From contig CAMNAE010000001.1 in NCBI GenBank assembly GCA_946530565.1, positions 1 through 26,618 of the forward strand: 26,618 nt of DNA. The letters are read 5' to 3'. This DNA comes from an uncultured Oscillibacter sp. (lineage in GTDB: Bacteria > Bacillota > Clostridia > Oscillospirales > Oscillospiraceae). Both the position numbers and the translations under genes were made by a program. Shown piece by piece: positions 12,348 through 14,778 of this stretch (position 1 is its first letter; each line of letters starts with the position of its first letter). The notes beneath the pieces are model-generated. The model was given only the letters and a program-made list of their open reading frames with translations. It did no database searches and was not told the DNA's origin.

Positions 12348-12393
12348 AAAAAATGCCCCGTGCTCTGAGCTTTTAAGTCTCAGTGCACGGGGT
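12348..12393. terminator. Bidirectional terminator between the ABC operon and the sensor kinase gene
   Basis: Arms 12356-12369 and 12379-12392 pair over 14 positions with one mismatch around a 9-nt loop. On the minus strand the stem is followed by C-A-TTTTTT, a good terminator for the kinase operon. On the plus strand TTTCG follows, a weaker tail. The right arm lies inside the last codons of the kinase gene. Confidence 0.75.
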
Positions 12394-13698
12394 TTCGTCC
12401 TGTTCCGATGCAGAAGCCGGCGCGCTTTCTTTTTTCGCCCTTGCGCCGCTCCTGCGCGGGATCGTGAAGATAAAGCGCGTCGAGCGTTCATCGCTCTCGG
12501 CCTTCAATGCCGCTTTGTGGGTCTTTGCGATCGTCAACGCGATCGGGAGTCCGAGGCCGAAGCCCTCTTTTTCGCCGCGCGAATCGTCGGCGCGGTAGAA
12601 GCGCTCAAAGAGACGTTTGAGCTGTTTGGGCGGGATCGGTGTCCCCTGGTTCGCGACCGTGAGACGCGCCGCGCGCTCGTCGGCTGTCAGTGTCAGGCGG
12701 ATCGGTCGGCCGTCGGCGCCGTACTTGACCGCGTTGTCCAGCAGGATCGCAAGCAGCTGCCGCAGCTGCTTGCCGTCGCCGGAAACACGCACATCCGGCG
12801 CGATCTCGTCGATCAGCGGCTTGCCGGCCTCGAAGGCCAGCGCCTCAAAGGCCATCACGCTCTCCTCGGCAAGCTCCGAGAGATCCAGCTCCTCCATAAC
12901 GGCCGTTGAGACCATATTGTCTGCCCGCGCGAGGGTCAGCATCTGTTCAACGAGCGAGCGCATGCTCTCGGACTCCGAGCGGATGTTCCCGACCCAGCGC
13001 GTCTCTTTCTCCGGCAGCGCGCTGCGGGAGAGCAGCTCCGCGTTGGAAAGGATCACCGTCAGGGGCGTTTTGAGCTCGTGTGATGCGTCGGAGAGGAACT
13101 GCCGCTGCTGCCGCCAGGACTTTTCGACCGGCCGCGTCACGAGATACGAAAGAAGCAGCGAGATCAGCAGCAGCACCACGAGCGCGATCGCCGCCGTGAA
13201 GAGATAGGGCACCATGATGAGGCGCAGGAGCGTCTGTTCCATCGAGGTATCGACAAAGGCAAAGCGGGTGTAGAGCCCGCGGTCCTCGCGCAGATAGCGC
13301 AGCGAATGGCTCTTGAGCATGCCGGAGCGCTCGGGAAGGCGCATGCACTCTTCGAGCAGTGTCCGGAGCTCCTCAGAGTCATCATCGATCTCGTAGGTGC
13401 CTCCGGTCACATAGACGCTCAGGCCCTCTTCCTCCTCGGCGGTCTCCCACGCGGTCACGGTGAAATACGGCAAAAGCGCCATCGCGCCGCGGTCGAGTCC
13501 CGGGCGGGAGCTGCCGTAGAAGCTGCGGTCATCGATGACCTGATGCAAAAGAGTCTCGCTCAGGCGCTGGACCGAGACCTGTGTGGAGGTGTAAATCCCC
13601 GCGAGCACGAACAGCAGCACCGCCATGACGAGCAGCATGCAAACCGCCGCGATGCGGAAGCGAAGTGAACGGATCAATCGAAAAACACCAGCTTTCAA
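12373..13698 (-). CDS. Sensor histidine kinase (EnvZ/PhoR-type), two membrane segments
   Basis: The 441 residues have a short cytosolic start, TM1 (about 16-36), a roughly 120-residue extracytoplasmic sensor rich in Asp/Glu, TM2 (about 161-187) and then the kinase. The H-box is FLSDASHELKTPLT (His207), the N-box LLDNAVKYG (Asn322), and the glycine box GFGLGLPIA is near 379. No clear HAMP domain is seen. The frame opens with TTG at 13698 and no Shine-Dalgarno precedes it; upstream is the pyrimidine-rich repeat arm. TTG at 13677 (codon 8) is an alternative. The partner regulator lies upstream in the same operon, separated only by the S23 cassette. The signal is unknown; the DUF4340 protein in the operon points to the envelope. 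Confidence 0.9.
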   Translation of the reverse strand: MKAGVFRLIRSLRFRIAAVCMLLVMAVLLFVLAGIYTSTQVSVQRLSETLLHQVIDDRSFYGSSRPGLDRGAMALLPYFTVTAWETAEEEEGLSVYVTGGTYEIDDDSEELRTLLEECMRLPERSGMLKSHSLRYLREDRGLYTRFAFVDTSMEQTLLRLIMVPYLFTAAIALVVLLLISLLLSYLVTRPVEKSWRQQRQFLSDASHELKTPLTVILSNAELLSRSALPEKETRWVGNIRSESESMRSLVEQMLTLARADNMVSTAVMEELDLSELAEESVMAFEALAFEAGKPLIDEIAPDVRVSGDGKQLRQLLAILLDNAVKYGADGRPIRLTLTADERAARLTVANQGTPIPPKQLKRLFERFYRADDSRGEKEGFGLGLPIALTIAKTHKAALKAESDERSTRFIFTIPRRSGARAKKESAPASASEQDETPCTET

Positions 13699-13710
13699 TT
13701 AGGTATTTGG

Positions 13711-13728
13711 AATGAGGAATGAGGAATT
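13711..13728 (+). repeat. Inverted repeat arm (kinase side) of the S23 cassette
   Basis: AATGAGGAATGAGGAATT matches the reverse complement of 14095-14112 at 17 of 18 positions. The first base of the S23 stop codon (minus strand, 13730-13728) overlaps its inner edge. Confidence 0.85.
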
Positions 13729-14075
13729 TATTCCCGTGTCGATTTGGTGATTGACGAGAGAAGTTTGTGTAATTCATCACGATCGCGTTTGAGTGATTGA
13801 TACTGAGTTCTATTGACATAGCCTGTCTCAAACAGCAGTGTCAGCCAGTACTCGGTTTCATAGCACTCTTTAAAGGCGATTTGCATTTTGGCATGAAAAT
13901 CTTTTCGGCTAACAGCGGCCAACGCCTCAGCAACATTTGCTCCGATACTGGTACCCGCTCGAAGAATCTGTTTTGACAAAACATATTCCTTTTTCGTCTC
14001 TATCAGATACTGGTATAAACGAACGATGCGAACGGCAAAGTGTCGGCTCTTTTCTGCAACGATATTGTCCTTCAA
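13728..14075 (-). CDS. Four-helix-bundle protein (S23 / rRNA intervening-sequence protein family)
   Basis: The 115 residues match the S23 family throughout. The hallmark is LRAGTSIGANVAEALAAVSRKDFHAKM, followed by ALKEC-like AFKECYETEYWLTLL and a C-terminal helix with QYQSLKRDRDELHKLL. Relatives are encoded inside intervening sequences of 23S rRNA genes and in short stand-alone cassettes. They form small helical oligomers of unsettled function. The start is TTG at 14075, with AGGA 8 nt upstream supplied by the flanking GGAATTAGGAATT repeats; an in-frame TGA closes the frame just above. By eye the gene is AT-richer than the neighbouring two-component genes, which supports separate origin. Confidence 0.88.
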   Translation of the reverse strand: MKDNIVAEKSRHFAVRIVRLYQYLIETKKEYVLSKQILRAGTSIGANVAEALAAVSRKDFHAKMQIAFKECYETEYWLTLLFETGYVNRTQYQSLKRDRDELHKLLSSITKSTRE

Positions 14076-14094
14076 AATTCAATTCCTAATTCCT

Positions 14095-14112
14095 AACTCC
14101 TCATTCCTCATT
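14095..14112 (-). repeat. Inverted repeat arm (regulator side) of the S23 cassette
   Basis: Read on the minus strand this is AATGAGGAATGAGGAGTT. It encodes the last three residues (Asn-Glu-Glu) and the stop codon of the response regulator, so the regulator's natural end has been replaced by repeat sequence. Confidence 0.85.
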
Positions 14113-14778
14113 AGAAAGGCAGTATCCGAGCATTCTGAGCGTTTTGATCCTGACGCTCGAGTGGATGTGCTTGAGCTTGCGGCGCAGGAAGGAAATATAG
14201 ACCTCGACGTTGTTGTCGTCGGCCTCGGTCTCATAGCCCCAGAGCTTTAAAAGGATCGTCTCCTTCGTGATGACGCTGCCGCGGTTCAAAAGCAGCAGCT
14301 CCATGAGCTCAAACTCCTTGTGCCGCAGCGTCACGCTCTCGCTGCCGCAGTGGAGCGTAAAATTCTGCTTGTCAAGCGTCAGATCGCCGAACGAAGGCCG
14401 GTCGCTCTCGCGCAGTTCCGGCTGCCGGCGTGAAAGGGCCCGGACGCAGGCGAGCAGCTCCTGCGGCTCAAAGGGCTTGGTGAGGTAGTAGTCCGCGCCG
14501 GAATCGAGGCCCTGCACCCGGTCCGCAAGCTCGGAGCGGGCGGTCAGCATCAAAACCGGCGTCTTGATTCCCTCGGCGCGCATGGCCCGCAGCACGGAAA
14601 AGCCGTCGCGCTTCGGGAGCATCACGTCGAGGATCATCACATCGTAGAGCCCCGTGAGCGCCTCGTCGAGGCCGCTCTCGCCGTCAAAGCGCGTCTCCGC
14701 CTGGTCGCCGCCGAGCTCCACAAGGTCGGCAAGCGTCGCGGCCAGGCGCTTTTCATCCTCCACGATCAATATCTTCAT
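14101..14778 (-). CDS. OmpR/PhoB-family response regulator
   Basis: The 225 residues have an N-terminal receiver with the acidic pair Glu7-Asp8, phosphoacceptor Asp51 (VMILDVMLPKRDG), Thr79 and Lys101 (LTKPFEP). The C-terminal winged helix includes LTLDKQNFTL, LRHKEFELMELLLLNRGSVITKETIL and VEVYISFLRRKLKHI. The fold ends at RMLGYCL; the remaining SNEE is encoded by the cassette repeat. The ATG at 14778 overlaps the DUF4340 stop as ATGA, so translation is coupled. Its cognate kinase is the gene at 12373-13698. Target promoters are unknown. Confidence 0.93.
   Translation of the reverse strand: MKILIVEDEKRLAATLADLVELGGDQAETRFDGESGLDEALTGLYDVMILDVMLPKRDGFSVLRAMRAEGIKTPVLMLTARSELADRVQGLDSGADYYLTKPFEPQELLACVRALSRRQPELRESDRPSFGDLTLDKQNFTLHCGSESVTLRHKEFELMELLLLNRGSVITKETILLKLWGYETEADDNNVEVYISFLRRKLKHIHSSVRIKTLRMLGYCLSNEE

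Follow-up and report, generated by a model that had tools for sequence, protein, structure and literature searches.

The S23 gene and the arrays flanking it

The DNA analyzed in this work, referred to here as the window, is a stretch of 26,618 nucleotides from an uncultured Oscillibacter sp. (contig CAMNAE010000001.1 of assembly GCA_946530565.1). On its minus strand the gene order is DUF4340, response regulator, S23 and histidine kinase, and the features of this locus are summarized in Table 1. In profile searches the S23 protein matched PF05635 with 105.8 bits (cut-off 33.8; residues 2–107) and TIGR02436 with 110.1 bits (cut-off 24), and it is a full-length member of the S23 / 23S_rRNA_IVP family above the curated cut-offs. 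At an E value of 1e-3 PF05635 was the only family matched by this protein, with no match to any transposase family, and the profile of the S23 family also matched the protein of known structure 2rld (E 1.2e-51). An in-frame TGA was observed by eye directly upstream of the start codon of the gene.

Table 1. Genes and repeat arrays at the S23 locus of the window.
Feature	Position	Strand	Basis or remark
S23 / four-helix-bundle gene, 115 aa, TTG start	13728..14075	-	PF05635, TIGR02436
Left arm, downstream heptamer array, GGAATGA GGAATGA GGAATT on + strand	13706..13728	.	overlaps S23 stop codon
Right arm, upstream heptamer array, coding strand AATGAGG AATGAGG AGTTAGG AATTAGG AATT	14081..14112	.	sequence
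Response regulator, Response_reg + Trans_reg_C domains	14101..14778	-	domain profiles
Sensor histidine kinase, HisKA + HATPase_c, downstream of cassette	12373..13698	-	domain profiles; TTG start as listed, uncertain

A sequence-only reading of this locus had described an S23-type gene within an inverted repeat that separates a regulator from its kinase, and this description is borne out. The 18-bp arms that it had marked (13711–13728 and 14095–14112) match at 17 of 18 positions, and as RNA of the coding (minus) strand they can form 18 contiguous pairs, one of them G-U. When the two 200-bp flanks of S23 were compared, the highest-scoring inverted match reached 16.5, a value attained by none of 3000 dinucleotide shuffles, the highest of which scored 15.5. 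Both arms consist of tandem 7-bp units (GGAATKA) that extend beyond the 18 bp, approximately to the limits given in Table 1, and the coding-strand sequence of the array following S23 is AATTCCTCATTCCTCATTCC. Within the right array the motif AGGA may be the ribosome-binding site of S23. The stop codon of the regulator (14101–14103) also falls inside this array, and the C-terminal residues SNEE together with the stop are encoded by array sequence, with different tails being found after GYCL in the congeners. No Rfam family was detected in the window at its gathering score.

The regulator-kinase junction in related genomes

The regulator was detected at E≤1e-60 in 55 of 61 genomes of the genus (G000 counted in). 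Thirty regulator loci were returned, the window's own among them, and the kinase adjoins the regulator in 28 of the other 29; for L041 no kinase is present within the stretch. In all 28 congeneric loci with both genes the gap between them is 45–262 bp, which leaves no room for S23. The sequence-only reading had suggested a search for the same gene pair with and without the insert, and all of these junctions are too short to hold it. Of the circumstances that it had named as speaking against its proposal, two could be looked for, viz. presence of the cassette at this very place in all distant relatives and lack of any other copies of the arms, and neither of these was found. The junction is devoid of S23 even in four genomes (G018, G025, G034, and G046) though they contain an S23 gene between purH and purD.

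S23 loci across bacterial phyla

The S23 loci were drawn from a sample of genomes of the family and from a genome collection, of whose 582 confirmed matches the best 80 were taken, and because of this the cross-phylum loci lean to the S23 subfamily of the window; they also include some near-duplicates (L132/L142, L106/L108, L144/L154, and L062/L066). After exclusion of L057, which had no profile match, and of five loci with short flanks, 124 loci (47 from the family and 77 cross-phylum) were usable with 200-bp flanks. Outside this count, loci L265, L285, L310–L312, and L314 were likewise left out, as the profile match was absent. Inverted arms were scored by comparing the upstream flank with the reverse complement of the downstream flank, a score of at least 14 being required. 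Such arms were present at 83 of the 124 S23 loci (68 of 77 cross-phylum and 15 of 47 family loci). The corresponding count for control ORFs taken from these loci was 9 of 164, and among 3000 mispaired flanks 5.4% attained this score. By the same score they were absent at 41 loci, 32 of them from the family. The arms are also characterized by a period of seven: upstream of S23, 69 flanks reached a period-7 score of at least 22 of 28 and 25 flanks did so for period 14, the downstream counts being 50 and 16, and of the remaining periods between 3 and 15 none was seen in more than one flank. A period-7 flank on either side is present at 83 of the 124 S23 loci versus 21 of the 164 control ORFs. In 40 of 51 cases the array began no more than 15 bp from the stop codon of the upstream gene, a figure partly forced by the method, in which the search starts 30 bp inside the ORF, and by stop codons lying in the arrays.

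Judged by record titles, the 83 loci with inverted arms span 11 phyla, a count in which family loci were taken as Bacillota and in which some labels of metagenome-assembled genomes may be wrong. The 7-bp word varies from locus to locus (AATTAGG, AATGCGT, AATTCGG, AATTGAT, AAGAGTG, AGGTATG, and others), and the two arms of one locus agree. Word similarity increases with S23 identity, both over the full set of pairs (r 0.36; 0 of 2000 permutations) and for pairs between phyla (r 0.29; 2 of 2000). In the S23 tree different phyla were intermingled and many forks lacked resolution. The genes neighboring S23 are diverse and are shared only by small groups of loci. Judged by its sequences S23 is under purifying selection, dN/dS being 0.03–0.10 in seven pairs with dS from 0.09 to 1.5; in the remaining pairs dS was higher or saturated.

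We also considered whether the genome dictates the word. This was rejected, though not wholly, because S23 copies of one genome differ in their word, the exception being the S23 of the window and the non-sister purH-purD S23 of G018, G025, and G046, all of which use AATTAGG. The Aequorivita genome G224 (L170) contains 21 S23 matches from two subfamilies, in which the array word varies from copy to copy.

Two other layouts were observed. In nine loci of another S23 clade (L053, L054, L068, L070, L075, L079, L081, L089, and L094) there are no inverted heptamer arms, and the 170–200 bp upstream of S23 hold a series of small hairpins, between which a short linker of constant sequence (such as TTTCATC, TTTCAC, or ATATCGA) recurs. 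In six further loci (L085, L086, L088, L090, L091, and L092) both arms, of the TTCACTA type, lie upstream of S23 and form one compact hairpin, which is sometimes found just past an apparent terminator or the end of a tRNA.

Array words and S23-less array pairs in the genus and family

The assembly containing the window (1.83 Mb in 306 contigs, about 69% complete) has the array word at three further places: one lies in the purE-purC interval, one separates ybeY from a recD-like gene, and the third follows another gene (these gene names, as well as purH, purD, accB, and accC, were read from the ORFs). Further copies of the arms with S23 genes, for which a search of this genome had been suggested, were not found: the arm word recurs, and a single S23 was detected in this partial assembly. 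In L008 (G000:C23, 2020–2350) two more repeat-like stretches, GTAGGGGCGACCCTGCGTGGTCGCCCG and the inverted CTGTCATCCTGAGCGCAGCGAAGGATC, lie beside a lone heptamer array.

Within the genus (61 genomes), PF05635 was detected in 12 and 14 have the word AGGAATKAGGAATKAGGAAT; the reversed control word is present in none of the 61. Among the 60 sampled congeners the arm word is present in 13, with a maximum of 68 matches in G042, a genome in which S23 was not detected; G013 and G030 contain S23 and no match to the word. The word AGGAATKA was found in 10 of the 12 genus genomes with S23 versus 4 of the 49 without it (Fisher p=6.3e-7). Similarly, in the family sample (n=150), arrays with AAT every 7 bp were present in 18 of 37 genomes with S23 versus 15 of 113 others (p=2.3e-5), and the reversed control word, found in 12 family genomes of which six have S23 (p=0.07), leans in the same direction as the true word. 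Genome G066 of this sample has 189 word matches and no detected S23. Both G066 and G106 (loci L178 and L179) are genomes with dense heptamer arrays, many of which begin at the stop codon of a gene.

From the word matches listed for three congeners, 20 array sites were chosen (11 from G018, six from G046, and three from G034). Inverted pairs no more than 500 bp apart were present at 15 of these sites, and at the other five a partner was missing by the word used. In all 15 pairs GGAATKA precedes its complement, and the opposite order was observed in none. The spacers are 17–170 bp long, and a GTCCGG-loop-CCGGAC hairpin is present in 12 of the 15 pairs by manual count (eight by a stricter count requiring two hairpins), the hairpin core occurring in both directions between the arms (e.g., L326 and L334). 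We read these S23-less pairs as a dispersed family of miniature elements whose ends are heptamer arrays.

Cassettes at purH-purD, in Bacteroides and on plasmids

At nine loci from congeners (L301–L309) and three from the family set, the S23 gene is located between purH and purD. These twelve genes group as a single clade (95/94), in which three subclades have the words AATTAGG, AGATAGG-like, and GAGTGAA-like, respectively, and the arms of each cassette are alike. Either both arms of a cassette were altered jointly at this site or one cassette was exchanged for a related one, and these copies look long settled rather than hopping. An origin of the window copy by a move from purH-purD was considered and dropped, because in the 39-row tree the window S23 lies outside this clade, with L097 and L111 as its nearest relatives (94/87).

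For the junction that is filled by the cassette in Bacteroides oleiciplenus (L113), all 60 genomes of the genus matched part of the query, and both anchors were present in 28 of the 30 loci read (L245 and L246 lack one anchor). The cassette occupies this junction in G211 and G648, with differing words. In G636 both arms are retained and S23 is internally deleted, and a similar remnant is present in G622. Eight loci have about 37–60 bp between the anchors, G637, G641, and G651 carry a different small ORF, and further genomes carry other inserts. Lone arm matches occur elsewhere in several of these Bacteroides genomes. Another inverted repeat, of the GGCACGGATTACACGGATT type, is found at the same junction in L227, L229, and L233.

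Nine S23 loci from plasmids or phages were read, and inverted arms scoring at least 18 were present in eight of them, the score for one faecal phage being 8. The S23 on a Monoglobus plasmid (L291) is 62.8% identical to that of the window and is broken by stops; it lies between hsdS and hsdR with the word of the window in both arms (arm score 19). Some plasmid S23 genes (L291, L297, and L296) are inside restriction or DISARM-like defence operons (hsdS-S23-hsdR and drmD-S23-MmeI) with no obvious functional link. Between two Planktothrix plasmids the array length varies by multiples of 7 (with alignment gaps of 7 and 21 upstream of S23), and a mixed array further downstream has other changes besides length. 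All three Planktothrix records contain the cassette, so that no near-identical plasmid free of it was found among them; other helicase-methylase plasmids, about 72% alike to these records, are shorter at the cassette site.

Proposed origin and spread of the S23 cassettes

Based upon these results, we consider it probable, with a likelihood of roughly 60%, that the window segment is a copy of a widespread small mobile cassette in which S23 lies between inverted 7-bp arrays at an operon junction, that S23-less array pairs spread as well, and that S23 serves the arrays. Comparison of the sequences establishes the architecture of the cassette, its recurrence across phyla, the matching of arms despite varied words, the cassette-free junctions, the dispersed S23-less relatives, and the purifying selection upon S23, and from these we infer that S23 acts on the arrays. 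In the proposed mechanism, the cassette would insert at a junction between operon genes, oriented like the operon itself, so that it could be read from the host promoter. S23, an oligomeric four-helix bundle, would recognize the heptamer array of its cassette, in the form of DNA or of transcript, and help in copying the arms. It may serve its own cassette and, in trans, the S23-less pairs, as RAYT serves REPINs. Array pairs with the same word would also spread on their own, lacking the gene, as miniature elements that end in inverted heptamers. We know of no catalytic motif for DNA cutting in S23, and the cutting and joining would be performed by replication or repair enzymes of the host. In the window, the insertion would have replaced the last codons of the regulator and supplied its stop, leaving the kinase gene open downstream. 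No transposition event was observed among the genomes compared, and the regulator-kinase and Bacteroides junctions are too diverged for the exact ends of the insertion or a target duplication to be fixed.

A broader proposal is offered more tentatively. S23 could be the dedicated protein of a class of transposase-free mobile DNA found across bacteria. The oligomeric S23 ring would read tandem 7-bp words, keep the arms alike and, with the aid of host replication, bring gene-bearing cassettes as well as miniature elements to new operon junctions; both the rRNA intervening sequences and the so far unexplained Xanthomonas heptamers would then be branches of this class.

It is also conceivable, although unlikely, that the arrays themselves are the mobile entity, moved by another protein of the host or of an element, for example RAYT or a reverse transcriptase, with S23 as a passenger that entered them by recombination. 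The hairpin cores, which are REP-like in appearance and occur as GC hairpins in most of the S23-less pairs, are consistent with this, as is the lack of detected S23 in 4 of the 14 genus genomes with the word and 15 of the 33 family genomes with arrays, and so is the sharing of one word by the S23 of the window and its non-sisters in G018, G025, and G046. However, a passenger is difficult to reconcile with the observations that the word tracks the S23 lineage, between phyla too, that S23 is under purifying selection, and that S23 and the word co-occur in the genus.

The sequence-only reading had regarded the segment as a possible mobile unit resembling an rRNA intervening sequence, with a stem formed by the arms in the mRNA that would let RNase III excise S23 and so uncouple regulator and kinase; in the fuller RNA-level alternative the unit would also move via RNA. 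Mobility and the resemblance to intervening sequences are supported, with 28 of 28 junctions being cassette-free, the word recurring, the layout being like that of such sequences, and S23 lying in the direction of its operon, and the conservation of the arms as an RNA stem is not supported. The predicted RNA of the cassette is closed by the arms (z -2.5; 2 of 100 shuffles equally stable), but any inverted repeat would close in this way. In the arms, G-U mismatches are not in excess of A-C mismatches (65 versus 86, p=0.10; by locus 21 versus 28, with 34 ties). At 63 loci with inverted arms and neighbors within 400 bp, S23 is co-directional with both neighbors in 51, against both in three and mixed in nine, which agrees with a function at the RNA level, but it may arise from operon context or a need for expression, as ordinary adjacent pairs in the same loci were 62 with the S23 strand, 17 against it, and 26 mixed (based upon crude ORF calls). 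RNase III is described, in the passages of PMC4990558 drawn on here, as cleaving the stem of the Coxiella intervening sequence. Overall, we consider excision and movement through RNA to be unlikely for the present cassettes.

Lastly, it is very unlikely that S23 is a resident gene serving the host and that the flanking heptamers are simple repeats growing and shrinking by slippage. The Planktothrix arrays, which differ by steps of 7, and the single clade of the twelve purH-purD genes are in line with this, but slippage does not explain the matching of two distant arms, which control ORFs rarely have. The diversity of the S23 neighbors and the constant arm order (15 to 0) of the S23-less pairs also speak against it.

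The mobile cassette thus remains the preferred reading. The layout of S23 and heptamers points to a hitherto unrecognized kind of small mobile DNA in many phyla. Structures have been solved for members of the widespread S23 family (2rld and 2gsc), for which, to our knowledge, no function is known, and heptameric intergenic repeats have so far been in print without an assigned cause; if the two belong together, both the function of S23 and the origin of the repeats become open to assay. If this reading is true, many genes annotated as 'four helix bundle protein' would be genes of mobile elements, an origin would be provided for the rRNA intervening sequences, and mobile DNA would gain a class with simple tandem words as its ends and with a protein that is not recognizable as a nuclease.

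Comparison with known systems

One of the closest known systems is the S23-encoding intervening sequence in 23S rRNA of Coxiella burnetii, which, as far as it is described in the passages of PMC4990558 considered here, resembles the window cassette in having an S23 ORF on the sense strand within a closing inverted repeat, heptamers before S23, and a patchy distribution. Its tandem heptamers (GACAGAT, two or three by strain) precede the S23 start, with an extra degenerate heptamer beside them just before the start codon, and the same passages describe the Xanthomonas S23 protein as a ring of five (PMC4990558). The solved relatives 2rld and 2gsc are likewise listed as having five chains apiece. 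Unlike the intervening sequences, the window copy is at the junction of a protein operon, outside any rRNA gene and with a regulator and a kinase as neighbors, both cassette ends are heptamer arrays, and S23-less array pairs exist. A conserved word of 23S rRNA matched none of 175 loci of this study, and hence the link to intervening sequences rests on PMC4990558. In a literature search of mainly open-access published papers, no paper besides the Coxiella note was found to tie S23 genes to inverted heptamer arrays; specialists may know others.

The heptameric repeats of Xanthomonas and Nostoc are also similar in being intergenic and of period 7, with inverted pairs in Xanthomonas (passages of PMC4692102). 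As reported there, the GGGAATC heptamers form 70 and 75 inverted pairs in two Xanthomonas strains and are generally not tied to mobile elements, and the repeat in Nostoc is GGGGAYT (PMC4692102). The passages concerned draw no link to S23, and the terms 'S23' and 'four helix' do not occur in the paper (PMC4692102). As GGGAATC arrays were expected to mark an S23 element, gammaproteobacteria were searched for this word, and three tandem copies were found in 1 of 369 genomes (G593). In this single case, which is also the only one of these genomes where S23 was sought, an incomplete S23 frame (77.9 bits, covering 64 of 106 positions) lies between accB and accC, and the GGGAATC-type arrays that flank it on either side are inverted relative to each other.

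Insertion sequences and MITEs share with the cassettes their terminal inverted repeats and the occurrence of an internally deleted copy with both arms (L225); unlike insertion sequences, the cassette has S23 as its sole gene and has no match to a transposase family. The Avd protein of diversity-generating retroelements (bAvd, PF22296) is another small helical-bundle protein. An S23 relative (L117) has a sub-threshold match to bAvd (E 0.002), whereas the S23 of the window has none even at E 10, and the genes adjoining its cassette are the regulator, the kinase, and DUF4340.

In organization, the cassettes are comparable to the REPIN/RAYT system, which, according to the passages of PMC3116915 used here, similarly consists of dispersed, extragenic, and hairpin-capable inverted doublets and of a gene flanked by the same repeats. 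The differences are that the ends of the cassettes are tandem 7-bp words and not palindromic REPs, and that the protein is S23 and not a Y1 tyrosine transposase (PMC3116915). Our verdict is that the cassette is probably related to the rRNA intervening sequences and appears to be built in the manner of a REPIN/RAYT system.
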